64,000 nucleotides of DNA from Calothrix sp. PCC 7716 (GTDB taxonomy: Bacteria; Cyanobacteriota; Cyanobacteriia; Cyanobacteriales; Nostocaceae). Under the pieces are notes generated by a model. That model did no database searches. It saw nothing but the letters and a program-made list of their open reading frames with translations, and was not told the origin of the DNA. Shown in pieces: positions 1 through 64,000 of this stretch. Each line of letters opens with the position of its first letter. Position 1 is the stretch's first letter. The DNA is taken from assembly GCF_019977735.1 (NCBI RefSeq), contig NZ_AP025018.1, forward strand, positions 2,728,001 to 2,792,000, read 5' to 3'. Position numbers and translations under genes: made by a program.

Positions 1-116
1 TTTTTATTATTAAATGATTACAAATAATAACCTATGTGTTATAAAGAATACTACTAATTCTAACTGGGTAAGAATTAGGAATGTTTTTTAAAAAATTTAT
101 CATCACAAAGAAATAA

Positions 117-183
117 AGAAACCGGGTTTCTACCCAAAATCTTTATTTTTATTACAAGGTATCGGTAAAGAAACCCGGTTTCT
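117..183. repeat. Dispersed hairpin repeat (AGAAACCGGGTTTCT family), copy 1
   Basis: Two arms, AGAAACCGGGTTTCT at 117-131 and AGAAACCCGGTTTCT at 169-183, flank a T-rich spacer containing TTTTTATTACAA. Each arm is nearly palindromic and the arms also pair with each other. The same spacer word occurs in the copy at 26436-26499, so arms and spacer form one element. It lies just upstream of the gene at 210. The first 116 bases are AT-rich and show no recognisable gene. Confidence 0.85.
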
Positions 184-209
184 AAGATATTTCAAAATAG
201 GGGAATGGC

Positions 210-410
210 ATGTTAGCAGCGATTTTAACAGAAAACCAAATTTTGGCGCCGTCTAAAGTTTGTCAGTCATGTATGCTGGCAGATGCAAGTGGTCAACCGC
301 GTTGGCGCGAAGGACAACTGTACTGTGGTCGGGCTATTGATAAAATTACAGCAGAGCAGCCCGAACAGTATCAGTGTGCGATGGGGTTTCGCGTTGTTAA
401 AGTTGATTAA
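210..410 (+). CDS. Small Cys-rich conserved hypothetical protein (66 aa)
   Basis: A 66-residue soluble protein with four cysteines (C18, C21, C39, C55). The first two form a CxxC pair, which suggests but does not prove metal binding. The ATG is preceded by AGGGGA about 6 bases upstream, a good ribosome binding site that fixes the start. I recognise it only as the kind of short conserved protein found in filamentous cyanobacteria; no function is assigned. It converges on the glycosyltransferase gene with an 11-bp gap. Confidence 0.7.
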   Translation: MLAAILTENQILAPSKVCQSCMLADASGQPRWREGQLYCGRAIDKITAEQPEQYQCAMGFRVVKVD

Positions 411-421
411 AGTATTCTTGA

Positions 422-1810
422 TTACTCTGTTAGTGTTCGTTTAGAAACTGTTTTTGGTTTTCGAGTCACTTCATTTTCACTAACGGTATAAAATATAGGC
501 TCGTATCTTGGCTGAATCACAACTGGTTGGACTATTGGTTGAACGCTGTTATCAATAACTGCTTGAACAGCTGGGCTTGTGGCTGGCTCTGTAATTGCGT
601 AAAATAAGTTCTCGTATTGATTCAAGGCGTTATCAAACGAGTAGTTTTCTACTGCGTACTTTCGACTGTTGTAGCCAAGTGAGTTAACAAGTTCTGGCGC
701 CGAATATAATTGCAAAATAGAGTTGGCTAATGCGTCGGGGTCTTCTGGAGGAACGACAATACCACCACCACTACTAGATATTGCCTTTGCCGCTGTGCCT
801 GTATCGGGTACTGATGCTATAATGGCACGTCCACTTGCTAGCGCTACCTGAATTTTAGACGGCATATTGAACGAAATAACATTTTTCTTTTGTACCACCA
901 AGCTTACATCTGCGGCAGCTAACATTGTTGGTAACTTTTCACGTTTTTGAAATGGTAACAATATCACATTGTCGGCGCCGTATTTGTCGCATTCAAGTTG
1001 CAAACGCTGTAAACCTTTAGCTTCTCCAACAATTACTACAACAATATCACGGATGTGGCGCACCTGACTTGCGGCTTTGACGACAGTCTCTAAACCTTGA
1101 GTTAAAGCAATATTTCCTGAGTACATCACCACAAACTTTCCGTTAAGGTTGTGGGTATGACGAAATTCATTATCTTCTTTAGACAAGGAACGAATAAAAT
1201 TTACATCTACCCAATTGGGTATTTTGACCATTTTGTTGGCTGCAACGCCTTTTTGTAACAAATTATCAACGAATCCATCAGCAATGACGCTGATTTTGGT
1301 TGCAGTGCGGTAAGCAAATTTTTCCAGCGTCTGAAAAACTTTGATTAAATATTTGTTTTTGAGTAAACCAACGTGAATTGCAGCGTCTGGAAGAATATCT
1401 TGGAGGTTTAAAACTACTGGGCAACGGTTCCACCATCCTAATAAAGCAGCAGGGACACAGCAGGGGAGCGATGGTGAGGTAGTTAGTATAACCGAAGGGC
1501 GCCAGCCAGATAATGCTGGGACAAAACTGGTTAGTGCAAAACTAGCGTCGAGCAAAATACGGTCGAGTAAGTTTGGCTGAGGACGTATCCAAACGAAACT
1601 ACGTTGAATCTTAACGCCGTTCTTCTCTTCTGTAACAAAAAATTTACCACGATACTCTTTATAAATTTGACGCTGAGGGTAATTAGGCATTGCTGTAACT
1701 ACACGCACCTCGTGTCCACGCTTTACTAAACCCTCTGCTAGTTCTGTCATCAAGGGAGCAATACCAATGGGTTCGGGGTGATAGTTGTAAGAGTAAATTA
1801 AAATTCTCAT
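422..1810 (-). CDS. Glycosyltransferase family 4, WcaI-like
   Basis: Probable retaining GT-B glycosyltransferase for an extracellular or cell-surface polysaccharide. The N-terminus MRILIYSYNYHPEPIGIAPL is the typical Rossmann start of WcaI-like enzymes. The C-terminal donor-binding half contains YSGNIALTQGL and a VALASGRAIIA stretch. An upstream in-frame start (1855) would add 15 residues unlike the family, so I place the start at 1810; neither has a clear Shine-Dalgarno. The last 60 or so residues after the catalytic fold are Pro/Val/Gln-rich and not part of the enzyme core. The sugar-transferase gene next on the same strand suggests a shared role in exopolysaccharide synthesis, but more than 490 bp and a terminator separate them. 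Confidence 0.85.
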   Translation of the reverse strand: MRILIYSYNYHPEPIGIAPLMTELAEGLVKRGHEVRVVTAMPNYPQRQIYKEYRGKFFVTEEKNGVKIQRSFVWIRPQPNLLDRILLDASFALTSFVPALSGWRPSVILTTSPSLPCCVPAALLGWWNRCPVVLNLQDILPDAAIHVGLLKNKYLIKVFQTLEKFAYRTATKISVIADGFVDNLLQKGVAANKMVKIPNWVDVNFIRSLSKEDNEFRHTHNLNGKFVVMYSGNIALTQGLETVVKAASQVRHIRDIVVVIVGEAKGLQRLQLECDKYGADNVILLPFQKREKLPTMLAAADVSLVVQKKNVISFNMPSKIQVALASGRAIIASVPDTGTAAKAISSSGGGIVVPPEDPDALANSILQLYSAPELVNSLGYNSRKYAVENYSFDNALNQYENLFYAITEPATSPAVQAVIDNSVQPIVQPVVIQPRYEPIFYTVSENEVTRKPKTVSKRTLTE

Positions 1811-2253
1811 AAATATAGTAAGTTTGAACAGCCCTGGTCGGTGATTTAAAGGCAAGTTTTATTTTGTTATCGCTTACCTAAAAAACGCTGGTTACTATTA
1901 ATTTTCTCTTCAGAGTTTATTAATGTCCGTTTTTTTTCGTTGAAGATTGAGTAAACTTGAAGTCAACTCTTTACATAGTGCGTAATACTTTTTTTACTTG
2001 CGCTCATTTATTTTATGTTTACTTAGAATAATTTATCTCCGTGAATACCCTCGCTTTTAGAGGCGAAAATATTTATATAACTAACCTATACAAACATAAT
2101 ATTCAGTATTTACGCTTGTAATCGTTATTATTTAGTGTTTAAATTAGTAATTGCAAATTGCAAATCGAATCTAAATTATTGGTATTAACCGAGACAGCTT
2201 TAACAAATTCCCCCAATAACAAGCTAAAATGACTTTAAGGTTTCTACGTGAAA
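1811..2253. other. AT-rich intergenic region
   Basis: About 440 bases between the glycosyltransferase start and the hairpin behind the STAS/sugar-transferase gene. Very AT-rich with poly-T and poly-A tracts. No open frame, RNA gene or clear promoter box could be supported. The promoter of the glycosyltransferase must lie here. Confidence 0.5.
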
Positions 2254-2286
2254 AAAAACCTGGTTTCTTCAAGAAACCAGGTTTTT
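2254..2286 (-). terminator. Rho-independent terminator of the STAS/sugar-transferase gene
   Basis: A perfect 16-bp stem: 2254-2269 pairs with 2271-2286 around a single base. On the minus strand it is followed by a run of eight T. It starts 20 bases after the stop codon at 2307. The stem contains CCTGGTTTCTT, a variant of the AAACCGGGTTTCT repeat family, so a family member appears to serve as terminator here. Confidence 0.8.
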
Positions 2287-2306
2287 GAGTGATGATTAGT
2301 TGTATT

Positions 2307-3305
2307 TTAGACGGCGCCGCTGTTTTTCTTGAACAAAATTGTGATGGTTCTGAAAATCAGCTTGAGGTCGTATAGCAAAGTCCAATTCTTCTGGTATTGC
2401 AAATCAAGACGAATTACATCCTCGAAACTGCGTATACTAGAGCGACCGTTTACTTGCCACTCTCCAGTCATCCCTGGTTTCACGTCTAAACGTTGCCATT
2501 CGGGCACTTCGTAACGCGCAACTTCATCGGGTGTAGGAGGTCTAGTACCAACCAAACTCATTTCGCCTTTGAGTACATTTAAAAATTGTGGCAGTTCGTC
2601 AAGCGAAGTGCGTCGTAAAAAACGTCCAACTCTTGTGACTCGCGGGTCGTTATCAATTTTAAAAAATGCACCTTGGACTTGGTTTTGCTTTAGTAGTTCA
2701 GCCTTTTTGGCTTCTGCATCAACGCACATCGAACGAAATTTCCACATTCGGAAATGTTTACCCATCCAACCACAGCGCGTTTGAGCAAAGAAAATTGGAC
2801 CTGGGTCATCGATTTGGATAGCAATTATAATTGGAATTGCCAAGATAGCGGTAATTACCAAACCTACAACAGCTCCAACGATATCGATAAAGCGCTTCAT
2901 CCAAGATTTGACGCTTAGATGAGTTGTGGGTAAGTTTTCTTCTAACTGATCTACTCGCGATACAGGTTCGGACTTTGATTCAATTGGGAAAACTTGATCT
3001 AATCCGGTCAAATTTAATACTGCCATCACCTGTGGTGTGACATTCCGCAACGTCATCGAAATTCCTTGTTGTTGAGCAATTTTGAAATTACTCACCAAAG
3101 CACCTAACCCACTACTATCCATAAAAATAGTATTGTCAAAAGCAATAATAATTTGTTTCAATACGTTATCTTTTTGGGTTAGGTCTTGGCAGGTTTGCTT
3201 GAAAGCTATAGCTTCAAGTACGCTCAACCTTGTAGGAACCTGAACTATTGCCGTATCCGCTTGGTATTTAACGGAAAAATCTGCCTCTGTGGGTTGGCTA
3301 GTCAT
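2307..3305 (-). CDS. STAS-domain/bacterial sugar transferase fusion (polyprenyl-P sugar-1-P transferase)
   Basis: Predicted to load the first sugar phosphate onto a polyprenyl phosphate lipid at the membrane, initiating exopolysaccharide synthesis. Residues 1-110 form an anti-sigma-antagonist (STAS) domain with the phospho-acceptor motif DSSGLGAL at 63-70. Residues 133-330 are a PF02397 sugar transferase: one membrane helix (about 141-165), QTRCGWMGKHFRMWKFRSM at 175-193, and SLDELPQFLNVLKGEMSLVG at 234-253, including the conserved D-E pair and the trailing R-P. The STAS fusion implies that activity is switched by phosphorylation or partner binding (inference). Length 332 aa; start ATG at 3305. 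Confidence 0.9.
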   Translation of the reverse strand: MTSQPTEADFSVKYQADTAIVQVPTRLSVLEAIAFKQTCQDLTQKDNVLKQIIIAFDNTIFMDSSGLGALVSNFKIAQQQGISMTLRNVTPQVMAVLNLTGLDQVFPIESKSEPVSRVDQLEENLPTTHLSVKSWMKRFIDIVGAVVGLVITAILAIPIIIAIQIDDPGPIFFAQTRCGWMGKHFRMWKFRSMCVDAEAKKAELLKQNQVQGAFFKIDNDPRVTRVGRFLRRTSLDELPQFLNVLKGEMSLVGTRPPTPDEVARYEVPEWQRLDVKPGMTGEWQVNGRSSIRSFEDVIRLDLQYQKNWTLLYDLKLIFRTITILFKKNSGAV

Positions 3306-3602
3306 GAAACTTTGTACTGAAACTTGCTGTAATTATTAATTTTCCTAAACATGATTATGTTGTAATAAATACTTTACCGTTCTTAGTGTACTTAATATAT
3401 AACTACTACGATGGCATCATAATCATTCGTTCACATGCTCTTGTCTCTAACTATAGTTTTTTTACTATGGCGCCTCCTGTACTTAAAGAAAGGTTGATGT
3501 AGTTTTGCTCAAAGTTAAAACATATTCAGTACTACAATGTCAATTTTATTACAGTCTTATCTTAGCTGTGTTTTTAGTCACGTTCTTTGATATATCGATA
3601 GT
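3306..3602. other. Divergent intergenic region (STAS gene / queE)
   Basis: About 300 bases holding the promoters of two divergent genes. AT-rich; one GGCGCC at 3469. No confident promoter boxes or operator symmetry were found. Confidence 0.4.
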
Positions 3603-4406
3603 ATGACCGCAAAAACAACTGTCACAACTGCTACAACTAATGCACGCTTAGTTGAGGTGTTTTCAGCCATCCAAGGGGAAGGACTAAACGTTGGAACTCG
3701 TCAGATTTTTATCCGGTTCGCACTTTGTGACCTGCGCTGTCACTTTTGCGACAGCTCCAATACATGGAATGCACCAACAACATGTAGAATTGAACGCTAC
3801 CCTGGTTTACGCGATTTTGAAGTATATTCAAACCCTGTAACATTATCTATGTTAGTCGAATGGGTTGAGCGACAAAATATACCTCAGCTACACGATAGCA
3901 TTAGCTTGACAGGTGGCGAACCACTTCTTCATGCCTCTTTCCTTGTTGAATTTTTACCGCAAGTCCGTAGTGCCACTAAATTACCCATATATTTAGAGAC
4001 TGGTGGACATCGAAGCGAACAACTCGCAATGGTGTTACCGTATCTTGACTCAGTGGGTATGGATTTTAAACTTGAAAGCGTCAGTGGTGAAAAGCGTTTA
4101 GTAGAACACGCGCGCTTTTTACAAATATGTCACGATTCACAAGTAGAAGTTTTTGTCAAGATTATTGTTTCAAGTTCGACAGATGTAGAGGAGTTAAAGC
4201 AAGCAGCGCAAATAGTCGCGGACATAAATCCATCAATTCCAATATTTTTGCAGCCTGTAACACCTTTAATATCGCCAACACATGCCGAAAAAGAAATAAT
4301 GGCGCCTTCCCCCGACCAAGTTTTGGTATGGCAAGCCATGATGAAGCGAATAGTTAAGCATGTGCGAGTAGTTCCTCAAACCCATAAGATGTTAAACCAG
4401 TTGTAA
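3603..4406 (+). CDS. queE: 7-carboxy-7-deazaguanine synthase (radical SAM)
   Basis: QueE contracts 6-carboxytetrahydropterin to 7-carboxy-7-deazaguanine, the committed step to queuosine and other 7-deazapurines. The radical SAM cluster motif CDLRCHFC gives C42, C46 and C49, in the CX3CX2C spacing. The substrate segment VFSAIQGEGLNVG lies at 19-31 and LTGGEPLL near 103-110, both characteristic of QueE. Length 267 aa. No other queuosine genes are in the window, so the gene is isolated as often happens in cyanobacteria. Confidence 0.93.
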   Translation: MTAKTTVTTATTNARLVEVFSAIQGEGLNVGTRQIFIRFALCDLRCHFCDSSNTWNAPTTCRIERYPGLRDFEVYSNPVTLSMLVEWVERQNIPQLHDSISLTGGEPLLHASFLVEFLPQVRSATKLPIYLETGGHRSEQLAMVLPYLDSVGMDFKLESVSGEKRLVEHARFLQICHDSQVEVFVKIIVSSSTDVEELKQAAQIVADINPSIPIFLQPVTPLISPTHAEKEIMAPSPDQVLVWQAMMKRIVKHVRVVPQTHKMLNQL

Positions 4407-4510
4407 AGCTAGATTTACTCGATATCGAGCGAATTTTCCATATTGTAGAGACTTTCTCGCTAAGTCTCTACAGCTTTACAGTATTTTCAAAACAACAGCA
4501 CAAAACTTTT

Positions 4511-4570
4511 GTAGACGTGATATTTGTAGACGTGATGAATCACGTCTCTACTGATTAATCACGTCTTTAC
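4511..4570. repeat. GTAGAGACG-family palindromic repeats
   Basis: Overlapping copies of GTAGACGTGAT...ATCACGTCTCTAC. Another weaker inverted copy lies at 4446-4471 (GTAGAGACT...AGTCTCTAC). The 3' end of this cluster overlaps the TAA stop of the DUF3318 gene (4567-4569). Related copies are at 5283, 19081, 48391, 48643, 58893 and 63727. Confidence 0.85.
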
Positions 4571-5211
4571 ATATCATCATCGGCGCTTCTGGGAGATTTG
4601 CCACGAACTTTGTTGGCACTGCGTTTTAGTGCTGAAAGACGCGCTTCATATTTAGAGCGTTCACGCTTACTGTTGGTGGTATCAATCAAAGTTTTTAGGG
4701 CACTACCAAGACTTTTATAAGCGTTGGGAAGAGTGTAACCGAAACGCTGTGCAAGTCCAATTGCCTTTTCATCTGCTTCAATTAGTTCGCGTGCGATTTT
4801 TTCGCCACTATTTTTTTGATACAGGCGCCATCCAGAAACACCGCATAATGCTAAAGCGAGGATTAATAATAATCCATCTTGTACCCAAAGTTCACCAACG
4901 GCGCCACCTAAACCAATAGCAAGTGCCGCCATTTCCCATCCATCTTTGGGAATAGTATCATTTTGAACGCGAGCGACTTCATGCCAGAATAACAAGTTGC
5001 GCTGGTCGATAGCGAGAGAGTCCCATTTCACCAAATCGATTTGAATTTCAACTTGGTCTTTACCAATTTCTTCGCATCTAACAAGGGGTGGATTGACTTC
5101 TGTCGTTCCTTCTACCGTAACCCAGCTTTGTAATTCAGGTGGCAATAAACCTTTTAATCGACGTAATTCGCTCATTTCTGCCTTCGCAGAAGAGGTTGCA
5201 TAGGATGTCAT
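4567..5211 (-). CDS. DUF3318 family membrane protein
   Basis: A 214-residue protein matching the cyanobacterial DUF3318 family from memory. It has a soluble N-terminal half (to about residue 88), two adjacent hydrophobic helices near 92-108 and 112-130, then a basic, helix-rich C-terminus with Lys/Arg/Ser-rich tail. The segment LLFWHEVARVQ resembles a metalloprotease-like HE helix, but no second metal-binding motif is visible, so no enzymatic role is claimed. ATG at 5211. Its stop codon lies inside a palindromic repeat. Confidence 0.85.
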   Translation of the reverse strand: MTSYATSSAKAEMSELRRLKGLLPPELQSWVTVEGTTEVNPPLVRCEEIGKDQVEIQIDLVKWDSLAIDQRNLLFWHEVARVQNDTIPKDGWEMAALAIGLGGAVGELWVQDGLLLILALALCGVSGWRLYQKNSGEKIARELIEADEKAIGLAQRFGYTLPNAYKSLGSALKTLIDTTNSKRERSKYEARLSALKRSANKVRGKSPRSADDDM

Positions 5212-5282
5212 ATATCCAGCCCCAGAATAAATCAGTACAATAGAGTATCACTTTGGAGTATAGCTATTTTAAAACGATTTAT

Positions 5283-5327
5283 GTAGAGACGTTACATATG
5301 TACAGACGCGACATGTCGCGTCTCTAC
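5283..5327. repeat. GTAGAGACG-family palindrome upstream of uvrC
   Basis: GTAGAGACGTTACATATGTA followed by a near-perfect palindrome AGACGCGACATGTCGCGTCT (5304-5323). It lies in the divergent spacer between DUF3318 and uvrC. Confidence 0.8.
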
Positions 5328-5416
5328 ACACATGATTGGGTAGTATCGCTATACCCCATAGTTCATCAAAAAATTAAAATATATATAGATATATTATAAA
5401 ATAACCATTTTTAACT

Positions 5417-7297
5417 GTGACAATATCTGGTAAAGTATTACCGCTCGTAAAAGACCCCGAACGGTTAGAAAATCGCCTCAAAGAAATTCCCCCACAACCT
5501 GGGGTATATTTCATGCGTGATGCTAGTGACCGCATTATGTACATTGGTAAGTCTCGAAAGCTGCGGTCTAGAGTTCGTTCTTATTTTCGTGACTCGCAAC
5601 GTTTGACTGAGCGCATTGCGACAATGGTTAAGCAAGTGACTGATATTGAGTTTATTGTCACCGATACAGAAACCGAAGCACTCGCGCTTGAAGCAAACTT
5701 AATTAAGCAGCATTTGCCTTATTTTAATGTTCTGCTCAAAGACGATAAAAAGTATCCATACGTATGTATTACTTGGTCAGAAGATTATCCGCGTATTTTT
5801 ATCACACGCAAACGACAGCTTGGTAAAGGGAAAGATAAATTTTATGGCCCTTATACAGATTCGCGGTTGTTAAGAGAGATATTACGCATTTGTAAGCGTA
5901 TTTTTCCGTTACGTCAACGTCCGCAACCTTTATTTAAAGACCGTCCTTGTTTGAATTACGATTTAGGTCGTTGTCCTGGGGTATGTCAAAAACTTGAGAC
6001 TCCCGAAGAATATCGTAAGACAGTGCAAAAAGTCGCGATGGTGTTTCAAGGACGTGGGCAAGAGTTGGTAGATATATTAACTGAGGCGATGTGTAAGCAA
6101 GCAGAAGCGTTAAACTTTGAATCTGCTGCACGTTATCGTGACCAAATCAATGGGTTAAAGTCGTTAACAGCAGACCAAAAGGTATCGCTTCCCGATGATA
6201 CTGTTTCGCGTGATGCCATTGCTTTGGCAAAAAATGATAATCATGCTTGTATTCAATTATTCCAGATTCGTGCAGGTCAGCTTGTCGGGCGCCTAGCATT
6301 TGTTGCGGATGGAAGTGCAGAACCAGGAGCTATAATACAACGGGTGTTAGAAGAACATTATCAAACTGCTGATGATGTAGAAATTCCTGCCGAAATATTG
6401 GTACAGCACGAGTTACCCGATACTGATATATTGGCTGCGGCTTTAAGTCAACGTAAAGGTCGTAAAGTTACTATTGTGGCGCCACAACGTCAACTCAAAG
6501 CAGAATTACTCGATATGGTAGAGCGTAATGCTCAGTACGAGTTAGAACGAATGCAGAAGTTGGGTGACCGTAATTCGGAGGCAATGCAAGATTTAGCGGC
6601 AATAATAGACTTACCCGACTTACCCCACCGCATCGAAGGTTACGATATTTCCCATATTCAGGGTTCTAATGCAGTTGCTTCGCAGGTTGTATTTATCGAT
6701 GGTTTACCTGCAAAACAGCATTACCGTCATTACAAAATTAAAAATCCTACAGTTACAGCAGGTCACTCAGATGACTTTGCCTCACTTGCGGAGGTTATAC
6801 AACGAAGATTTCGTAAATTTATCGAAGACCCACAGTTACAGCGTTTAGGAAATCCTGATTTTCCTGACTTAGTAATGATAGATGGTGGTAAAGGACAACT
6901 TTCTGCCGTTGTCGCTGTTTTAGAAGAAATGAATTTAATGGAAGATGTGCGTGTTGTCAGTTTGGCGAAAAAGCGTGAAGAAATCTTTTTACCTGGCGCC
7001 AGTTTACCAGTAGAAACCGACGCAGAACAACCAGGAGTGCAACTTTTACGACGCTTACGCGATGAAGCACACCGTTTTGCCGTTACCTTTCACCGTCAAC
7101 AACGAAGTGATAAACTGAAGCGGTCACGTTTAGACGAAATACCAGGTTTAGGAAGTCACCGTCAAAAACAACTGTTGGCTCACTTCCGCTCGGTAGATTA
7201 TATTCGTTTAGCAACACCAGCACAACTCGGTGAAGTTCCAGGTATTGGCCCGCGTTTAGCTCAAGAAATTTACGATTATTTCCACCCGTCAAACTGA
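5417..7297 (+). CDS. uvrC: Excinuclease ABC subunit C
   Basis: UvrC makes both incisions in nucleotide excision repair in complex with UvrB. GIY-YIG nuclease domain about 26-105 ([20 protein letters not shown]), Cys-containing segment [18 protein letters not shown] near 178-195, UVR/UvrB-binding helix near 208-243, UvrC RNase H-like domain about 380-545 ([23 protein letters not shown]), and tandem helix-hairpin-helix at 570-622 ([29 protein letters not shown]). 626 aa, normal length. The start is GTG at 5417; no strong Shine-Dalgarno is visible. No uvrA or uvrB nearby. Confidence 0.97.
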
Positions 7298-8470: not shown

Positions 8471-8471
8471 A

Positions 8472-55636: not shown

Positions 55637-55661
55637 ACCGCGCGCTTGCTTTTAGTTTGAG

Positions 55662-55683
55662 TAAGGTGGGCAGTGCCCACCCA
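55662..55683. repeat. AAGGTGGGCAGTGCCCACC palindrome
   Basis: The hairpin GGTGGGCA/TGCCCACC lies 26 bases after rpmB and touches the 3' end of the PEP-CTERM gene (stop at 55687); a likely shared transcript end. Confidence 0.85.
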
Positions 55684-55686
55684 GAG

Positions 55687-56340: not shown

Positions 56341-56610
56341 AATACTAAGTGTTTATACTGCTATGCCTCAAATATTACCATTTGCTGTTGTAGATAATTT
56401 GATGTTTTTTTCGCGTATTTACGATTTTTAAGATGATTTCAAGGCAATACTTATATTTTCAAATTCAATCACAAATAATATTACCTGAACGCATATAATA
56501 ATTATTAATTTTTGCAGCTACTTTAATGTAGTAAAAAGCACATAAAATCTTATTATTATTATTATGAACCTATAATACGATTCAGCTATAGCGGCTACTT
56601 TGATTCAACA
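56341..56610. other. AT-rich intergenic region
   Basis: Upstream region of the PEP-CTERM gene and of a gene fragment. Contains a short ATT microsatellite near 56553-56565 and nothing else recognisable. Confidence 0.5.
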
Positions 56611-56757
56611 ATGATTCCCGAATTTGATGAAAATGGAAATCTACCACCAGGGGTGTATTTTTGTGATTGGGACGAGTTTAAAGAAAGATTTGGGTACACG
56701 CCCAAACGCTCAAGAATGATAGAAGGACTAGAAGAGGTAATAGAACATCTTAACTGA
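56611..56757 (+). pseudogene. Truncated DUF6932-like protein (48 aa)
   Basis: ATG 56611 to TGA 56757. The product MIPEFDENGNLPPGVYFCDW DEFKERFGYTPKRSRMIEG resembles from memory the conserved first third of DUF6932 proteins (about 150-170 aa, nucleotidyltransferase-like). It ends just where the nucleotidyltransferase motifs would begin; a palindromic repeat lies 25 bases further on. Probably a remnant, though a short expressed peptide is possible. Confidence 0.55.
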
Positions 56758-56779
56758 CCGGAATGCACCTTCGATTGGG

Positions 56780-57190
56780 ATGGTAAGGTGGGCACTGCCC
56801 ACCCGACGTAAAAGCACATGTTACAACTTTCCATTGCAAAAACTGCGAGATTTGCCAAAGTATTCAATTGAACGAATTAATCAGTTACAACATAAAGAAA
56901 AATTATTGTTAGCTCACGAATTTTATAATCCTGATAATTATGAAGCTTTGAGCGTAAGTACTGAAGACCATTATATAGTTGGTTATTGTCCAAGATATTT
57001 ATTTGCAGAAGTATTTGAACAAATAAAACAAAAATCGCGTGTCGAAATACGAGTAGAACATGTCAACGAACCTTCTACACTGTTTCAATTTCGTTTGATG
57101 TGTGAGATGACTTTTGATATAAACAATGAAGGGCGCCTGTTTTCAGGTCAGCAATATCAACCGCTTATCACTGAAAAAGCAATAGTATAA
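56780..57190 (+). CDS. HIRAN-like domain protein with repeat-derived N-terminus
   Basis: The frame runs 136 residues from ATG 56780, but the first eight or so codons (MVRWALPTR) are the GGTGGGCACTGCCCACC repeat (56782-56803). From LRDLPKYSIERINQLQHKEK the protein looks conserved: LLLAHEFYNPDNYEALSVST, EDHYIVGYCPRYLFAEVFEQ, QFRLMCEMTF. This layout resembles HIRAN domains (DNA-end or damaged-DNA binding). The normal N-terminus appears to have been replaced by the repeat, so it is probably truncated; expression is uncertain. Confidence 0.55.
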   Translation: MVRWALPTRRKSTCYNFPLQKLRDLPKYSIERINQLQHKEKLLLAHEFYNPDNYEALSVSTEDHYIVGYCPRYLFAEVFEQIKQKSRVEIRVEHVNEPSTLFQFRLMCEMTFDINNEGRLFSGQQYQPLITEKAIV

Positions 57191-57207
57191 TATATAAATA
57201 TAAATCT

Positions 57208-57420
57208 ATGGTTTTTCAACCACGCTTCAATTATTGTGACGCACTAGTAAAACATCTGGGAACTATTGAAGCAGCGCGCGCTGTTATCGAAGTATTACCG
57301 CTTCCTCCTGATACTGCATTGCGGTTACGTCATGATGCTGTGCAAAAAAGCACGCGCAGTTCGACGCAAATTGAGGGAAATCCTTTAGATGAAGCATCTG
57401 TTAGACGTGCAATAGCTTAA
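57208..57420 (+). pseudogene. N-terminal fragment of a Fic-family protein
   Basis: 70 residues: LPLPPDTALRLRHDAVQKST then RSSTQIEGNPLDEASVRRAI. This matches the N-terminal Fic_N segment, whose STQIEGN is strongly conserved. The HPFxxGNGR catalytic motif of Fic is absent because the frame stops at 57420. It starts 18 bases after the HIRAN-like gene. It is a remnant of an AMP-transferase-type gene. Confidence 0.65.
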
Positions 57421-57810
57421 GTTATTACACTGGTTAAAAAGTATGTATTATTACTGTAAAATCATTATTTCTCTCAGTACTATAAAATTGTCTTTAATTT
57501 CCGCGTCTTACCCGCCTTAGATAAAGATGCCAAAAAATGGCTTTTAATTCAAAAATGTAGTACAGGAATTAAATCAGTAAAGGTTATAGCTGATTAATAC
57601 AATGATAATTTAAAGACTTCCAAGCAAAAAATAACAAAAATTTCTTGTGGGATGGGCATCCTTGCCCGTCCCAAACTTAGGCATTTTACATATACGCACG
57701 CTCCATAAATAATTTTAATTATTAAGACTTCATAAAAAATTTATATATTAAATATTTTATGTTTAATAATCACGTACTATCCAGGATGCACAAAAAGTTG
57801 AATTAAATTC
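57421..57810. other. Intergenic region with a CTTGTGGGATGGGCATCC repeat
   Basis: Broken coding traces up to about 57597 (for example DKDAKKWLLIQKC in one frame) may be leftover pseudogene sequence, not assigned. The hairpin repeat CTTGTGGGATGGGCATCC lies at 57642-57672. The rest is AT-rich. Confidence 0.6.
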
Positions 57811-58791
57811 ATGATTGACCACGATGGCTTGTTTAAAAAGTTAATACAGAATTTTTTCCTTGAATTTATCGAGTTATTTTTTCCAGATATCAGTGATGTT
57901 TTGGATAAAGACTCAATCACATTTTTACCACAAGAGATACTTACAGATGTTAGAAAAGGTGAGAAAAAACTTATAGATGTATTAGTCCAAGCAAAATACA
58001 AAAACGAGACGACGCTATTTATTATACACATCGAGCATCAGTCTTATATTCAAAAAGATTTTAGTGAACGTATGTTTTTGTACTTCGCTGATTTGTTTAA
58101 AATCTATGGAATTCCAATAATACCAATCGTGATTTTCTCTCATGATGCACCGTTGACTATACAACCAGCATCATTCAACATCAGCGCAAGAGGCAAGAGT
58201 GTAATGCAGTTTGATTATGAAGTAGTTCAGTTAAATCAACTTGACTGGCAAGACTTTGTGAATAAACAAAATCCTGTTGCCAGTGCTTTGATGTCAAAAA
58301 TGCACATGGATGTTGCAGAACGTCCAATGGTAAAGCTAATTTCACTACAGGTACTCGCTTCGTTAGGGCTAAATCCTGCACAAGTCGAACAAATCTCTGT
58401 TTTTATTGATACGTACCTTAAACTCAATACAGAGGAAGAAGAAGTGTTTAATTCACAAATTGCTACCATAGAAACAAAAAAGAAGGAGCAAGTTATGGAA
58501 ATTGTTACTAGCTGGATGGAAAAAGGTATAGAGAAAGGCAAGGAACTAGGTAAGGAGGAAGGTATAGAAATAGGTAGGGAAGAAGGTATGGAACTAGGTA
58601 AAGAACTAGGTAAGCAAGAGGAAGCTGCATCGGTAGTTCTGTTGCTACTTCAACGTCGTTTCGGGGACTTAAGTCAAAGTCAGCAAGAACGTATTAAAGG
58701 TCTTTCTAGAAAACGTTTAGAAGATTTGATAGCAGCGCAGCTAGATTTTAATTCAATTACAGATTTGAAGAAATGGCTCGCGCGCGTTTGA
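57811..58791 (+). CDS. Rpn-family PD-(D/E)XK nuclease with DUF4351
   Basis: 326 residues. N-terminal nuclease about 1-140 with FLEFIELFFPDISDVLDKDS, the catalytic KLIDVLVQAKYKNETTLFII and HIEHQS core. Low-complexity Gly/Glu/Lys coil near 238-272 (EKGIEKGKELGKEEGIEIGR). C-terminal DUF4351 from about 278 (LLLLQRRFGDLSQSQQERIK, ITDLKKWLARV). Rpn proteins promote RecA-independent recombination and are annotated as putative transposases. This copy appears intact and may be related to the decaying array at 61596-63642. Confidence 0.85.
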   Translation: MIDHDGLFKKLIQNFFLEFIELFFPDISDVLDKDSITFLPQEILTDVRKGEKKLIDVLVQAKYKNETTLFIIHIEHQSYIQKDFSERMFLYFADLFKIYGIPIIPIVIFSHDAPLTIQPASFNISARGKSVMQFDYEVVQLNQLDWQDFVNKQNPVASALMSKMHMDVAERPMVKLISLQVLASLGLNPAQVEQISVFIDTYLKLNTEEEEVFNSQIATIETKKKEQVMEIVTSWMEKGIEKGKELGKEEGIEIGREEGMELGKELGKQEEAASVVLLLLQRRFGDLSQSQQERIKGLSRKRLEDLIAAQLDFNSITDLKKWLARV

Positions 58792-58839
58792 TTATATAGA
58801 AACCCTAAATTGTTTTTAAAAAAATCTTAGTATCTGTAA

Positions 58840-58985
58840 GGATACTGCTGGCGATTCGAGGGTGGCACCCATTATTTCATGAAAACCGACGTGTAGAGAC
58901 GTGAAATTTCACGTCTCTACATCTTTGGAAACAACGCAAAATCGTCTAACTGAGGGGTCAGACCTACCATTCGCCAGCAGTATCC
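58840..58985. mobile_element. 146-bp inverted-repeat element with 5-bp target duplication
   Basis: Perfect 15-bp terminal inverted repeats GGATACTGCTGGCGA (58840-58854) and TCGCCAGCAGTATCC (58971-58985), flanked on both sides by the direct repeat TGTAA (58835-58839 and 58986-58990). The interior carries a perfect 28-bp GTAGAGACG-family palindrome (58893-58920). It has no coding capacity. It is best described as a MITE that has jumped into, or next to, a GTAAGGTGGGCAG repeat. Confidence 0.7.
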
Positions 58986-58988
58986 TGT

Positions 58989-59010
58989 AAGGTGGGCAGT
59001 GCCACCTTAC
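58989..59010. repeat. AAGGTGGGCAGTGCCACCTT palindrome
   Basis: Member of the GGTGGGCA family with one base missing (GGTGGGCAGTGCCACC), directly at the right end of the 146-bp element. The remaining 59011-59142 has no supported feature beyond one GGCGCC (59060). Confidence 0.8.
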
Positions 59011-59142
59011 GTGTTAGTTAAATACGAACACAAACAATTTGAACGGTTTAGGAATATGGGCGCCGATATAATCTCTACAAAATCTTAATTTTAAAATGAT
59101 GACTGGGCATACTAAGGGTAGCTTCTCTTTTCCTTTGATATT

Positions 59143-60132
59143 ATGACTGTTGACTTTACTGTTGCTATTCCTACTTATAACGGCGCCAGTCGTTTACCGA
59201 AAGTGCTATATAAGTTACAGATGCAGACAGGTATTGAGCACCTGAGTTGGGAAATAATCATTGTTGATAATAATAGTAGTGATGAAACGGCGAAGTTAGT
59301 TCAAGAGTATCAGGAAAATTGGCGCCATGCTGCTAAGTTGCGTTATTGTGTGGAATGCAAACAAGGTGCCGCGTTTGCGCGTCAGCGGGCGATAATGGAG
59401 GCGAAAGGGGAAATAGTTGGGTTTTTGGATGATGATAATTTGCCTTATGAGACTTGGATATTAGAGGCGTATAAGTTTATTCAAGAATATCCTCAAGCAG
59501 GCGCCATTGCTAGTCAAATTCACGGTGACTTTGAAGTTGAACCACCAGAGAGTTTGAAGTCGTTGGTTTTTTACTTGGCTATTACAGAACGTGGTGATAA
59601 ACCTCATATATTTGAACCGCGTCGTAAGGGGTTTCCTCCATCTGCGGGTTTGGTGGTTCGCAGGGATGCATGGAAGGTATCGGTTCCAGCGCAGTTGTTT
59701 TTAGTGGGTCGAGTTGGTAATTCGATGATAGGTAGCGAAGATGCAGAGGCTTTATTTTATATTCATAAAGCTGGTTGGGAAATTTGGTATAATCCTGCAA
59801 TGGTGGTTGACCATGTTATTCCGGCATGGCGCCTGGAAAAGAGTTATTTAGTTAATTTAATGCGTGGAGTTGGGTTAGCACGGTTTTATTTAAGGATGCT
59901 GCTACTCAAAACTTGGCAACGACCTTTTGCTTTTTTTGTTTATATTGTGAATGATTTGAGAAAGTTATTAGTGTATTTTGTGCGTAATTATAAGGTGATG
60001 AAAAGTGATGTATTAGTGGCTTGCGAGATGGAAAGGCTACTTGGTACTTTTATAAGTCCATTTTATTTGTTTAGGAATGTAATTAAGAGTTTAATCCCCC
60101 CAACCCCCCTTAATAAGGGGGGCTTAAGATAG
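59143..60132 (+). CDS. hpsE: Hormogonium polysaccharide glycosyltransferase HpsE-like
   Basis: Family 2 glycosyltransferase of about 329 residues, matching from memory HpsE of Nostoc punctiforme, needed for the polysaccharide secreted by motile hormogonia. GT-A start TVAIPTYNGASRLPKVLYKL, donor motif IVDNNSSDETAKL, FLDDDNLPYE as the DxD, GSEDAEALFYIHKAGWEIWY as the acceptor/catalytic region. The last 13 residues (IPPTPLNKGGLR) are encoded by a C/G-rich dispersed repeat; the original stop seems to have been lost. Probably in one unit with the next GT. Confidence 0.85.
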   Translation: MTVDFTVAIPTYNGASRLPKVLYKLQMQTGIEHLSWEIIIVDNNSSDETAKLVQEYQENWRHAAKLRYCVECKQGAAFARQRAIMEAKGEIVGFLDDDNLPYETWILEAYKFIQEYPQAGAIASQIHGDFEVEPPESLKSLVFYLAITERGDKPHIFEPRRKGFPPSAGLVVRRDAWKVSVPAQLFLVGRVGNSMIGSEDAEALFYIHKAGWEIWYNPAMVVDHVIPAWRLEKSYLVNLMRGVGLARFYLRMLLLKTWQRPFAFFVYIVNDLRKLLVYFVRNYKVMKSDVLVACEMERLLGTFISPFYLFRNVIKSLIPPTPLNKGGLR

Positions 60133-60215
60133 CTCATTTTTACTCTTACTTCATAACAGCTAAAAATACTTTTTTTTCCTGTTCCCCCCTTATTAAGGGG
60201 GGCTAGGGGGGATTT
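60093..60215. repeat. C/G-rich inverted repeat pair overlapping the hpsE 3' end
   Basis: ATCCCCCCAACCCCCCTTAA with TAAGGGGGGC (60093-60122) and the mirrored GTTCCCCCCTTATTAAGGGG with CTAGGGGGGATT (60181-60214). Each arm is itself palindromic around TTAATAA. The first arm lies inside the hpsE reading frame. An equivalent pair is at 61291-61406. Confidence 0.9.
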
Positions 60216-60310
60216 CAAATAATTTCACAAACAAATCCGCAAATTAACTGAGCCGTTTCGCTATTGATTTAAATTAGCATATCAATTATATTTTATTTAA
60301 TTGATATTAT

Positions 60311-61291
60311 ATGCCTATTGTCTCAGTTATTATCCCAGTATATAATGGCGAAAAAACTATAAAAAAAACAATTGATAGTGTATTAAAACAAACTTTAACA
60401 GACTTTGAATTAATTGTAATTGATTCTGGCTCTACTGATTCCACATTCTCAATAGTTTCACAAATTCAAGATTCTCGACTTCGTGTATACTCATATCCAA
60501 AAGCAAATGTTGCAGTTAATCGTAACCGTGGATTTGAACATTGTTTAGGTAAATTTGTCAGTTTTTTGGATGCTGATGACCTTTGGGCACCTGACAAACT
60601 CGAAGCGCAGTACAATGCATTAGTAGAAAGTAAAGCTGTAGTGGCTTATAGTTTTACTGATGCTATAGATGAAAATGATAAATTTCTGCGTCCATGTAGT
60701 CATGCAGCGTGGTCAGGTGATGTATTTTCACAACTGCTTTTAGATGACTTTATTGGCAGTGGTTCAAATGTGATGATACGTGCTGAGGCATTTACAGAAG
60801 TTGGTGGTTTTGATGGTTCGCTTTCTAACGCGCAAGATACAGACTTGTGGGTTCGTTTAGCTGCAATAGGTGATTTTGTTGCAGTAAAAAAAGTACAAGT
60901 GTTATACCGTATATCCGCAAATTCTATGTCTTCTAACGTATTAGGACTAGAAAAATCTAATCTAGAAGTTATTGAACGAGCTTATAAGCATCCAAAAGCA
61001 ACTCAGTATAAGCATTTAAAATCAGTAAGTATAGGAAACCTATATAAATATCTTAGTCATAAAGCACTTTCGGCGCCACCTGGTCAACATAATGCCCAAA
61101 TTGCAGCAAGATTTTTAGTTACAGCAGTTAAATATGATAAAACTTTGCTATTTAAACCTATTTTATATAAAGCTTTATTAAAACTGGCAGCAATGTCGTT
61201 TTTATCTCCAAAAGGCGCCAGTGACTTATTAAATAGATTTCCTCGTCTTTCAGATACAAGTACATTTTTTGGTTATATCAAAGTTAATTGA
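60311..61291 (+). CDS. Glycosyltransferase family 2
   Basis: 326-residue GT2: SVIIPVYNGEKTIKKTIDSV, IVIDSGSTDSTF, FLDADDLWAPDKLEAQYNAL (DxD), and WVRLAAIGDF with a D-T-D-L-W acceptor motif (NAQDTDLW). The C-terminal third is less conserved and rich in Leu/Lys. It follows the hpsE-like gene by 178 bases on the same strand and likely works in the same polysaccharide pathway (inference). Its TGA stop overlaps the first base of the C/G-rich repeat. Confidence 0.87.
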   Translation: MPIVSVIIPVYNGEKTIKKTIDSVLKQTLTDFELIVIDSGSTDSTFSIVSQIQDSRLRVYSYPKANVAVNRNRGFEHCLGKFVSFLDADDLWAPDKLEAQYNALVESKAVVAYSFTDAIDENDKFLRPCSHAAWSGDVFSQLLLDDFIGSGSNVMIRAEAFTEVGGFDGSLSNAQDTDLWVRLAAIGDFVAVKKVQVLYRISANSMSSNVLGLEKSNLEVIERAYKHPKATQYKHLKSVSIGNLYKYLSHKALSAPPGQHNAQIAARFLVTAVKYDKTLLFKPILYKALLKLAAMSFLSPKGASDLLNRFPRLSDTSTFFGYIKVN

Positions 61292-61406
61292 TCCCCCCAA
61301 CCCCCCTTAATAAGGGGGGCTATGAATTGTTGATAGAAAAGTGAAGTCAAGTAAAATTTGTATCCTCTCTTGTTCCCCCCTTATTAAGGGGGGCTAGGGG
61401 GGATTT
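61291..61406. repeat. C/G-rich inverted repeat pair behind the GT2 gene
   Basis: Same architecture as 60093-60215: ATCCCCCCAACCCCCCTTAA, a 50-bp spacer, then GTTCCCCCCTTATTAAGGGG and CTAGGGGGGATT. Spacer sequences of the two loci differ, so the arms, not the middle, are conserved. Bases 61407-61595 carry no supported gene. Confidence 0.9.
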
Positions 61407-61595
61407 AATCATACAATTACAAGCACACTCCAGACAGGCGCCAACTTTGATTAGTGCCAGTACAGAAACTGTCATAACACTAATCATTCAAATGTTTTTC
61501 ATAGTATTTTAATGCTATTAGAGCGCTGAAGTTGTTAATCAGCCTAGCTTTAGCCTCTGCATAAAACACTCAACTGACCTTGACCAGGGTGACAA

Positions 61596-62473
61596 ATGAA
61601 GCGAGACCCAATATTCTATAAACTTTTCCAGCAATCTCCAAGCGCGCTATTTCAACTACTTAAGACACAACCACCAAACGCAAACGCTTATAGGTTCGAG
61701 TGTGTAGCAGTGAAAGAGCCAAAATTTGAAATCGATGGCGTATTCTTGCCACCAGCAACCAACAAAAGTGGAATTGTGTATTTTTGTGTTCGCGTAGCAT
61801 GCCGTCAGGCACAGCACGGTTCGAGAAGGATGAGATGTTATATGAAAAATTTTTTGCTGAATCTCATCTTTATTTTTATCGCAACCGTTCAAAATTCAGT
61901 GACTGGCAAGCTGTTGTAATTTACCCATCGAAAAGTGTAGAGCAAAGTAATGTTTATCCACATCGCTCGTATCTTAATGGCGGGCAAGTACATAGAGTTT
62001 ATTTGGATGAACTAGGAGATATTCGTACACTCCCAATTTGGGTTGCTGTAATGGTGTTGACTACACTGAGTGAAGCAGTGGCGCCAACAGAAGCAAGATA
62101 TTTGCTCGAACGCTCACGACAAGAACCGGAAGTTTCAAGTGGCGCCGTACTTGAGGTGGTAACGTCGATAATGGTTTACAAGTTTGAACAACTGAGTAGA
62201 AACGATATAGATACTATGTTAGGCATAACAATAAAGGAAACACGAGTTTACCAAGAAGCTAGAGAAGAAGGACGAGAAGAAGGACGAGAAGAACAAGCAG
62301 TCAATTTCATCGCCCGTCTTTTAAAGAAACGATTTGGGCACTCACTATCTGAAGAGATGCGCGAGCGACTAGAGAATTTACCCTTACCTAATCTTGAAAG
62401 TTTGAGTGAGGATTTATTGGATTTTAGTTCTTTCGCTGATTTACAACCTTGGTTGGACACGAAGGTAATTTGA
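61596..62473 (+). pseudogene. Rpn/DUF2887-type gene disrupted by a TTCGCGTAGC repeat
   Basis: The N-terminal frame (61596-61919) encodes MKRDPIFYKLFQQSPSALFQ and FEIDGVFLPPATNKSGIVYF, then loses the frame at a short repeat containing TTCGCGTAGCATGCCGTCAG. A second frame carries the rest: EKDEMLYEKFFAESHLYFYR, VVIYPSKSVEQSNVYPHRS, VYLDELGDI, a Glu/Arg coil (REEGREEGREEQ) and a DUF4351 tail LLKKRFGHSLSEEMRERLEN. Without the repeat the two parts would form one roughly 290-residue protein. Each part alone lacks half the fold. Confidence 0.75.
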
Positions 62474-62527
62474 TTTTCGCCTTGGCTTATGCATCCAAAC
62501 ACTAAAAATATTATTACCAGGTGAAGA

Positions 62528-62779
62528 ATGAAACGAGACTCAATATTTTACGAATTTTTTCAACAATATCCATCGATACTATTTCAATTACTTAAGACAC
62601 CACCGCCCAATGCGGACGCTTACACATTTGATAGTGTTATTCTAAAAGAGTCGAAATTTGAAATTGATGGCATATTCTTGCCACCGGAAAGCAAAGAGCC
62701 TGGAACTGTGTATTTTTGTGTTCGCGTAGCATGCCGTCAGGCACAGTGCAATTCCAGAAGGACGAGAGGTAAAATTTGA
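62528..62779 (+). pseudogene. N-terminal fragment of a second Rpn/DUF2887-type copy
   Basis: MKRDSIFYEFFQQYPSILFQ and FEIDGIFLPPESKEPGTVYF parallel the first copy, and the same TTCGCGTAGCATGCCGTCAG repeat sits at the same position. The frame ends at TGA 62779. The sequence then continues into a MITE-like element (62804-63024). Confidence 0.75.
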
Positions 62780-62803
62780 AGCAGAGGCGCCCGTTGTTTC
62801 TGT

Positions 62804-63024
62804 AATTAGGGCTTGCTGAATAGAATTAAAACCTTTACCATGTAAGGGTTTCAAACATTTAGATTCCAAATAGACGCAAGAAAAAGGTGCCTACAGGCTC
62901 AAAATCCGTGTATTTGGATGGAAAAATTAGGGCTTGATTTTTAAGCCAACCTCCGAAACAACCATTTTTTGTACTGTGAGCGCGTCTAGATTCATTTTGT
63001 GGAGTTTTTCAGCAACCCCTAATT
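62804..63024. mobile_element. 221-bp MITE-like element with GGGCTTGCTGAA ends
   Basis: Left end AATTAGGGCTTGCTGAA (62804-62820) and right end TTCAGCAACCCCTAATT (63008-63024) are imperfect inverted repeats. The interior contains AAAATCCGTGTATTTGGATG and TTAGGGCTTGATTTTTAAGC but no transposase frame. The ends resemble those of common cyanobacterial IS elements, so it is probably a deletion derivative mobilised in trans. Confidence 0.6.
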
Positions 63025-63056
63025 AGCTTAACGGGAGCGCAAGTTTGAAAAATTAA

Positions 63057-63305
63057 GCTGAAAAGGTATAGATACTATGTTGGATATAACACGCTCAGGA
63101 AACACGAGTTTGTCGAGAAGCTAGAGAGGAGGAAGCCGCTGATGGTATCTTGAGCCAGTTGAAGAAAAGATTTAGGCAAAAAGTATCAGAAGATATGCGT
63201 GCGCTTTCTAGAAGTTTACCTCTAGCTACTCTACACAACTTAAGAGAGGCTTTACTAGATTTTAGTTCTTTAGCTGATTTACAACCTTGGTTGAAGGCTC
63301 AATAA
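63057..63305 (+). pseudogene. Degenerate C-terminal part of the second Rpn-type copy
   Basis: Bases 63066-63305 parallel the coil and DUF4351 tail of copy 1: GATACTATGTTGGATATAAC, then LSQLKKRFRQKVSEDMRAL and LLDFSSLADLQPWLKAQ-like sequence, ending TAA at 63303-63305. The coil is frame-broken and the middle of the protein is missing. Together with 62528-62779 it looks like one copy split by the MITE and an internal deletion. Confidence 0.65.
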
Positions 63306-63336
63306 ATTTTATCCCCTAACCCTTTTATTTTGGGTT

Positions 63337-63642
63337 ATGGGGACAATGGTTTACTTCACACGCGAACAATTGAGCGAAAAAGATGTGAATACTATGTCAT
63401 ACACAGCATTAATAAAGCACACACGAGTTTATCAAGAAGCTAGAGAAGAAGGACGAGAAGAACAAGCAGTTAATCTCATCGTCCGTCTTTTAAAGAAACG
63501 GTTTGGGCAGGAAGTATCTCTTGAGACGCGCGCGCAAATAGAGAGTTTATCGTTGCCAACTCTCGAAACTTTGAGTGAGGATTTATTGGATTTTACATCT
63601 TTCGTTGATTTACAACCTTGGTTGGACGCGAGGACAATCTAA
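63337..63642 (+). pseudogene. C-terminal fragment of a third Rpn-type copy
   Basis: 101 residues: MVYFTREQLSEKDVNTM, RVYQEAREEGREEQAVN, LLKKRFGQEVSLETRAQIES, DLLDFTSFVDLQPWLDARTI. It covers only the coil and DUF4351 tail and has no nuclease part. The ATG at 63346 (MVYF) or GTG-like start at 63337 may be used, but a stand-alone function is unproven. Confidence 0.7.
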
Positions 63643-63648
63643 TTTTTC

Positions 63649-63678
63649 AAGCCCTCAATACCTTCTTCGGGGGCTTTT
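63649..63678 (+). terminator. Weak terminator-like hairpin
   Basis: AAGCCC (63649-63654) pairs with GGGCTT (63671-63676), followed by TT. The loop is 16 bases, so stability is modest. It lies 7 bases after the stop at 63642. Confidence 0.4.
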
Positions 63679-63726
63679 AATCAGGATAAAATTTTAACTA
63701 GTAGTTTATGTCATTAAATTTGGTTA

Positions 63727-63755
63727 GTAGAGACGCGATTAAATCGCGTCTCTAC
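63727..63755. repeat. GTAGAGACGCGATT palindrome
   Basis: A perfect 29-base inverted repeat GTAGAGACGCGATT / AATCGCGTCTCTAC around one A. It belongs to the GTAGAGACG family. The spacer 63756-63863 also holds two GGCGCC sites and no gene. Confidence 0.9.
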
Positions 63756-63863
63756 AATATTTTTTTATTTACGCTGGACTACTTGCGGCGCCCATTTGGG
63801 AACAATAACAATATCCGGCGCCTGCGCGTGAATATTTTATACGTGTATTATTGAACAAAAATT

Positions 63864-64000
63864 ATGAAAATGAAACTTGCCTATATTACAGAATATGACG
63901 TACTAGACAAAACATCGTGGTCAAGAAACCATCAAGGACTTTGTGCAGCAGGTAACTACATAGGGCACCAGCTAACCGAGCAAGATGTATCAATAGACTA
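63864..64000 (+). CDS. Glycosyltransferase family 4, N-terminal part (runs off window)
   Basis: The frame from ATG 63864 encodes MKMKLAYITEYDVLDKTSW then RNHQGLCAAGNYIGHQLTEQ and continues past the window edge. A short beta strand followed by a helix with a Gly-rich turn is the typical GT-B N-terminus, and I recognise the AYIT-Y-DV start of cyanobacterial GT4 proteins. ATG 63870 is an equally possible start. With the two GT2 genes upstream it suggests a polysaccharide locus continuing to the right. Confidence 0.6.
   Translation, partial: MKMKLAYITEYDVLDKTSWSRNHQGLCAAGNYIGHQLTEQDVSID

Follow-up and report, generated by a model that had tools for sequence, protein, structure and literature searches.

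Genome counts indicate that the palindromic hexamer GGCGCC has replaced the highly iterated palindrome (HIP) known as HIP1, GCGATCGC, throughout the genus that includes Calothrix sp. PCC 7716, and comparison of four close genomes shows that its sites now erode rather than accumulate. The analysis concerned a 64,000 bp stretch of the PCC 7716 genome (the window), for which an initial annotation had proposed GGCGCC as the substitute for HIP1; the switch itself was already known from Calothrix PCC 7103 (Elhai 2015, PMC4390886). The explanation preferred here, held with moderate confidence, is that GGCGCC is the HIP of this genus, fixed in its ancestor, probably methylated at the inner C by a methyltransferase designated 0a, maintained as a hexamer and eroding by deamination. 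The window and its sites are:

G000:C1:2728001-2792000, no strand assigned: the window, 64,000 bp of a 12,367,066-base genome in 10 contigs (G000, PCC 7716).
Window 245..63822 (first site at 245, last at 63817), palindromic and so on both strands: 117 GGCGCC sites, from counts and Markov expectation.

One GGCGCC per 547 bp was counted in the window (estimated before as about 115 sites, one per 550 bp), where 5.5, 5.3 and 16.3 sites are expected under order-1, order-2 and order-3 Markov models at a G+C of 39.06%. Genes and spacers both carry the sites, as had been described: 101 of the 117 lie within 38 open reading frames (ORFs) of at least 150 aa (44.9 kb; 40 ORFs minus two overlapping ones) and 16 lie outside, and in-frame copies hold 53 of the 152 GGC and 53 of the 199 GCC codons of these ORFs. 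The even spread described earlier was no more than chance would give, since spacing was close to random (coefficient of variation 0.88, random mean 0.99) and 8% of 2000 random placements were as even as that observed. HIP1 and CGATCG were both absent from the window, and GATC (13) and GGCC (7) were very rare. Over the whole genome (12.37 Mb), 20,380 GGCGCC were counted; HIP1 occurred 66 times and its reversed control word 64 times. A 464 kb sample, consisting of the window and 20 pieces of 20 kb, held 804 GGCGCC where 37.7 were expected (observed/expected, O/E, 21), the strongest over-representation among the 64 palindromic hexamers, followed by CGCGCG (7.9) and GCGCGC (3.7). GGCGCC is therefore far from its Markov expectation, HIP1 is not abundant elsewhere in the genome, and the proposed replacement holds genome-wide. 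Markov expectations were used because the reversed word CCGCGG, rejected as a neutral control, is probably restricted in this genome. An origin of the GGCGCC abundance in codon usage, amino-acid usage or base composition has a negligible chance of being right: GGC-GCC is indeed the commonest frame (153 of 290 coding sites), but the other two frames carry 60 and 77 sites and a further 49 are non-coding or at edges, other palindromes made up of G and C alone are scarce in or missing from the 464 kb sample (CCGCGG 0, GCCGGC 6), and sampled relatives of similar G+C (G128, G079 and G022) lack GGCGCC enrichment.

The family survey comprised 192 genomes, 7 of the window's genus and 185 others in 55 genera. 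The genus members, two of which are metagenome-assembled genomes (MAGs), are:

G000, the window's genome; G138, Dulcicalothrix desertica PCC 7102; G127, Calothrix PCC 7103; G115, NIES-4105.
Further members: G076, HK-06; G101, the MAG C42_A2020_038 (C42); G030, the MAG FI2-JRJ7.

All seven carried 7475–20,380 GGCGCC (about 1150–1711 per Mb, from rounded genome sizes; O/E 15–21 in samples) and 31–163 HIP1 (4–23 per Mb; controls 37–75), so the count in sister genomes, too, agreed with the proposal, and enrichment of the octamer GCGATCGC was found neither in the window nor in any of the seven genomes. GATC (O/E 0.11–0.27) and CGATCG (0–0.64) were depleted in samples of all seven, and the NIES-4105 plasmid (contig G115:C2) was also enriched, with 39 GGCGCC in 40 kb. 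HIP1 in PCC 7103 numbered 163 in 11.6 Mb, that is 14 per Mb, the same as in Table 2 of PMC4390886. Aligned DNA diverges by as much as 19% between members. Each of the 185 other genomes had 0–603 GGCGCC, the one exception being G089 (1053; control word 1270), and HIP1 reached 1,000 or more in nearly all of them; the lowest HIP1 counts outside the genus were 30 (G082, 88% completeness), 535 (G022), 574 (G154) and 990 (G083). With GGCGCC dense in 7 of 7 genus genomes and near that density in 0 of 185 others, alternate HIPs are not only sporadic.

High GGCGCC counts do occur among 388 genomes of the class outside the family, but there the control word or the G+C is also high. One such genome, G410, was rejected as an independent switch: although it stands out within its own genus, with 9489 GGCGCC in 3.8 Mb and a control count of 2450, its G+C was 56% in the 30 kb sampled. 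Many genomes of family f16 were likewise set aside (up to 5498 GGCGCC in 2.9 Mb, control counts about half as high). Two genomes from other families of the class may show a weaker independent enrichment: G536 (3074 in 7.7 Mb, control 165; sampled as one 4-kb piece plus one all-N piece) and G423 (1169 in 5.3 Mb, control 25; sampled as two 4.8-kb pieces with 55.5% G+C, 8 HIP1 and 2 GGCGCC). In the family, the low-HIP1 genome G022 (genus g23, 10.7 Mb) has a GATC O/E of 0.04, carries the 5-methylcytosine (m5C) methyltransferase general to HIP1-bearing relatives and contains a frequent repeat with CGAGGAGACTGA-like words; no alternate HIP or other such palindrome was found in 190 kb of it.

The loss of sites was followed in an alignment of PCC 7716, PCC 7102, PCC 7103 and FI2-JRJ7 (the others 94.7–95.6% identical to PCC 7716), using only columns in which all four were aligned without gaps (93,219 of the 284 kb reference). 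GGCGCC was present at 124 sites in all four genomes, 46 in three, 16 in two and 9 in one. Two-state sites gave 3 gains and 46 losses (leaving out the 16 sites in two genomes and the multi-state ones of the 9 singles), where other hexamers pooled by G+C had gain/loss ratios of 0.88–1.13; a second count gave 9 gains to 46 losses, the lowest ratio of 891 hexamers. Thirty-two of the 46 single-lineage losses led to GGTGCC or GGCACC, that is, to an inner C>T on one strand, and the remaining 14 were spread over 12 words. Inner C>T losses occurred in all four lineages (PCC 7103 15, FI2-JRJ7 6, PCC 7716 6, PCC 7102 5). The inner C changed to T at 41 of 342 positions, compared with 4 of 336 (position 5) and 11 of 332 at the other two motif C positions and, elsewhere, 64 of 1236 in other GCG, 28 of 393 in other GCGC and 1155 of 24,429 at other C. 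GGTGCC, the expected deamination product, had an O/E of 0.7–1.4 in the genus and 0.08–0.25 in three other genomes. This loss spectrum is the pattern expected of deamination of m5C at the inner C, GG(5mC)GCC; it suggests that GGCGCC is methylated in vivo and at which position, and the inner C may be named as the methylated base with fair confidence. Methylation-linked miscalls occur in long reads, and the C>T excess could in principle reflect an artefact of base calling at the methylated positions of a single long-read assembly; this is very improbable, as the inner C>T changes were seen in four lineages, three of them from assemblies other than the window's, and such an artefact would itself require methylation at GGCGCC.

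Conservation was confined to the hexamer. Fourfold degenerate G or C positions were compared in codons whose first two bases had not changed: those at motif positions 1, 2, 5 and 6 varied in 13 of 137 cases, compared with 641 of 2528 elsewhere (p = 9e-6), which is 2.7 times less, and the inner positions varied at 29 of 116, 28 of these being transitions. The five bases on either side of GGCGCC varied at 0.109 (overall mean 0.087, smaller alignment). With its outer bases protected and its flanks at or above background, the hexamer as such is conserved, apart from the inner transition. Sites of the close group were shared with NIES-4105 in 61 of 82 cases (control 0.47) and with C42 in 17 of 39 (control 0.29). 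In another genus HIP1 was kept at 41 of 43 and 21 of 26 sites, where background 8-mers were kept at 0.748 and 0.39; with only 7 HIP1 differences its substitution spectrum was unusable as a comparison.

A methyltransferase for GGCGCC was sought among the m5C methyltransferases of the genus. METHYLTRANSFERASES: matches to PF00145 numbered 9–17 per genus genome, and 66 of them, after split matches had been merged and short fragments dropped, gave 65 proteins, which were clustered at 50%. The candidate is:

G000:C1:10950557-10951468, minus strand, outside the window: candidate GGCGCC methyltransferase 0a.

All seven genus genomes carry this m5C methyltransferase, at 80–99% identity, and its copies group in a single clade with 100/99 support in a tree built from 35 rows selected out of the homologs. 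It sits at the same locus in six (PCC 7716, PCC 7102, PCC 7103, NIES-4105, C42 and FI2-JRJ7), where it is flanked by a RuBisCO-like gene (MtnW-type by NCBIfam below the cut-off, PF00016 above it) and an S-layer-homology (SLH)/glycosyl-hydrolase-like gene of about 682 aa; most of the latter is missing in FI2-JRJ7, and a BrnT/BrnA-like pair intervenes in NIES-4105. HK-06 carries 0a elsewhere, on a 16.8-kb contig. No endonuclease was recognised among the neighbours of 0a at the genus loci, and in this sense the solitary methyltransferase that had been asked for has a candidate. Near 0a, PCC 7102 and PCC 7103 have another m5C methyltransferase, of 658 aa, and next to it an ORF of 270 or 435 aa, for the longer of which no family scored over the cut-off. 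Homologs 0b–0d occur in some members, and the 368-aa ORF beside 0b had no family or structure match. PCC 7102 and C42 contain one 0a-type homolog each at E<=1e-60 (best 12 candidates at most scored per genome), the others 2–3, some of them fragments; clustering of the 65 proteins likewise gave one each in these two. A second copy was therefore rejected as a requirement for an alternate HIP. Two 292-aa ORFs with similar first residues (L070:16302-17180 in PCC 7716 and L200:8781-9659 in HK-06) lie near methyltransferase copies, and that of L070 matches DpdA (deoxypurine in DNA, PF23859).

The specificity of 0a was approached through site avoidance at homolog loci, of which 68 of 80 were used (39 cyanobacterial and 29 other, split by record title; 7 from the genus and 5 shorter than 9 kb omitted). 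Of the hexamer patterns, GRCGYC had the lowest z-score at the 29 non-cyanobacterial loci (21 observed, 260 expected, O/E 0.081; GGCGCC 0.118, GACGTC 0.069), with an O/E below 0.25 in 24 of them, and reached 32 of 244 expected (O/E 0.131) at the 39 cyanobacterial loci outside the genus. Within the genus only GGCGCC departs from GRCGYC depletion: GGCGTC and GACGTC have O/E values of 0–0.3, and GACGCC/GGCGTC are strongly depleted (12 observed, 75 expected in 464 kb). These patterns point to GRCGYC as the specificity of the 0a family, and 0a would accordingly be predicted to act on GGCGCC in this genus. Among the 185 relatives, the association between an 0a-type methyltransferase and the GGCGCC count was weak (median 6 in the 51 with it, 25 in the 134 without, p = 5e-4), and G021, G070, G096 and G112 combine the methyltransferase with 144–277 GGCGCC. 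Another m5C methyltransferase was found in 175 of these 185 genomes and in 0 of 7 genus genomes at E<=1e-100; the best match of four close copies of it among the 65 genus proteins was 35–37%, and it is assumed to be the CGATCG enzyme. Vsr-like repair was rejected as a driver: Vsr (PF03852) was found in 0 of 60 family genomes (only PCC 7716 and FI2-JRJ7 of the genus among them; 5 of 14 control genomes positive), and the precursor word GGTGCC/GGCACC is not depleted (118 observed, 98 expected).

Much of this has a precedent. According to the available text of PMC4390886, GGCGCC is an alternate HIP in PCC 7103 as well as in 19 kb of sequence from Calothrix D253; PCC 7103 has low HIP1, depleted CGATCG and GATC, two GrCGyC methyltransferases and GATC restriction, and has lost a CGATCG-specific m5C methyltransferase. 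The genus described here agrees in word, enzyme and replacement and shares the lack of HIP1 and CGATCG, the GATC depletion and the GRCGYC methyltransferase: one GC-rich palindrome is over-represented, HIP1 is low and a methyltransferase that would cover the word, judged by avoidance, is present. The pair of methyltransferase copies, described there as possibly critical but not defining, with a one-copy strain named (PMC4390886), is lacking in PCC 7102 and C42. PCC 7103 is one of the seven genomes used here, which include one-homolog members. Compared with what is accessible of PMC4390886, the between-species loss spectrum, the excess of losses and the hexamer-confined conservation are new, as are the clade property, the sufficiency of one methyltransferase homolog, the naming, with fair confidence, of the methylated base, and the erosion of sites. 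HIP1 resembles GGCGCC in being dense, genome-wide, tied to a methyltransferase (PMC4390886) and conserved between species; it differs in its word, and relatives with HIP1 generally carry an m5C methyltransferase that this genus lacks. The rCCGGy of Oscillatoria PCC 10802 and the GCsGC of Cyanothece PCC 7822 are likewise reported with low HIP1, another GC-rich palindrome at high density and a matching methyltransferase, but involve other words and, in the part available, single genomes (PMC4390886). The accessible part of PMC3497702 concerns HIP1, and among the matches listed from the open literature (without subscription papers or preprints) there was no later cyanobacterial work on GGCGCC.

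On the preferred explanation, GGCGCC would have become fixed in the ancestor of the Calothrix PCC 7103/Dulcicalothrix desertica group, replacing HIP1. GATC and CGATCG sites may have been driven out by restriction, and the general m5C methyltransferase of HIP1 relatives lost, as in Elhai's scenario; methylation of GRCGYC would then have taken over, with GGCGCC accumulating in a past burst. Vertically inherited 0a, standing without an endonuclease, would most likely methylate the inner C, giving GG(5mC)GCC. The sites would be kept by a force acting on the hexamer, either weak selection for the site in its methylated form or restoring repair coupled to methylation, and they would be lost mainly when the methyl-C they carry deaminates to T. 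Both the maintaining force and the past burst are what we infer from the present pattern.

For the maintaining force, the mismatch repair directed by G-methyl-C that is proposed as the builder of such sites, and that postulates a MutH analog (PMC4390886), would act as a ratchet: it favours mutations creating GG(5mC)GCC, the sites are a functionless by-product and gains stop at about one per kb. The model requires methylation of the internal C, described as unknown for any enzyme of GrCGyC specificity in the text available (PMC4390886), and the loss spectrum supports this. The depletion of the one-step precursors GACGCC/GGCGTC, the rarity of C>T at position 5, a density above one per kb and the near absence of gains, as at saturation, also agree with it. 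However, repair over about 1 kb should not protect six bases only, with flanks at or above background; the six-base protection fits site-specific selection or site-tied repair better than kilobase-scale repair, but if the ratchet re-converted near-miss sites, for which the depleted GACGCC/GGCGTC would still serve as substrates, much the same pattern would be expected at positions 2 and 5. The second methyltransferase copy is unneeded in PCC 7102 and C42, and the statement that exceptional HIPs 'occur sporadically, not in clades' (PMC4390886) is contradicted by the 7 of 7 genus genomes. The ratchet is considered rather unlikely. The alternative of direct selection, in which methylated GGCGCC is a chromosome-wide signal (a repair-strand, nucleoid/segregation or self-DNA mark) under weak selection per site, is likewise regarded as doubtful. 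It would account for conservation limited to the hexamer at fourfold sites, for HIP1 being at least as strongly kept in another genus and for GGCGCC on a plasmid, but each of 20,380 sites would need selection above drift, a loss to gain relation of 46 to 3 is no balance, and spacing is near random.

Several observations weigh against the preferred explanation as a whole. Twenty of the 46 losses fell in one lineage, PCC 7103, and the four-genome tree is near-star, so that loss and gain were polarised by majority. Relative to the nearest context outside the motif (other G[C]GC), the excess of C>T at the inner C was only 0.120 versus 0.071 (p = 0.03). Without codon control, C>T at position 6 (0.033) was not below that of G[C]C outside (0.029), and transversions at position 5 (0.018) were at background (0.021). 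Several patterns were more depleted than GRCGYC at the 39 cyanobacterial loci, and the common locus lacks 0a in HK-06. The identity of the absent methyltransferase as the CGATCG enzyme is assumed; 10 relatives without it keep 2878–7016 HIP1, which shows that losing it is not enough to eliminate HIP1, G022 retains it with only 535 HIP1, and methyltransferase loss and GATC restriction are not always paired with HIP1 loss.

Other repeated words and near-absent palindromes were recorded alongside GGCGCC. The second enriched palindrome of the window is:

Window 4109..63534, from counts: 37 overlapping CGCGCG sites, without GGCGCC-like conservation.

The suspected enrichment of CGCGCG was borne out (260 observed, 33 expected in 464 kb of PCC 7716; GCGCGC 169 and 46); the window count was 37 with overlaps, where about 25 had been estimated. 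CGCGCG had an O/E of 3.7–9 in samples of all seven genus genomes and 0.14–0.99 in G128, G079 and G022. Across the four close genomes 20 sites were kept, 11 lost and 10 gained, and with a conservation unlike that of GGCGCC this enrichment looks like a different thing. TGCGCA, TTCGAA, GTGCAC, CCGCGG and CCATGG were nearly absent from the window and the genus, which suggests that many restriction systems act, or once acted, on these genomes. A PF09517 (Eco29kI family) gene adjoins the methyltransferase of one cluster in PCC 7716, the cluster being found in 6 of 7 genus genomes; Eco29kI cuts CCGCGG, hence the probable restriction of that word. At window positions 37878-37964 the heptamer ACTCAGC and variants form a tandem array, and many copies of this stretch, at 88–99% identity, occur across PCC 7716, NIES-4105 and PCC 7102.

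HIP1 was described in the 1990s, and its purpose is a long-standing open question. A whole genus that swapped HIP1 for GGCGCC, with cultured strains (PCC 7102, PCC 7103 and NIES-4105) and one candidate methyltransferase, is a natural experiment. It suggests that the function of HIPs, if any, is independent of the letters of HIP1 and that alternate HIPs may last throughout a genus, and it singles out the inner C as the base at which to look for methylation. Tentatively, and with the balance leaning somewhat against it, iterated palindromes may come in pulses, with many sites created at the takeover by a new solitary m5C methyltransferase and then a long period of almost no new sites, base-by-base protection of the hexamer and erosion as its methylated C deaminates; GGCGCC in this genus would then be a HIP in its eroding phase, and HIP1 elsewhere would be one that is better kept.

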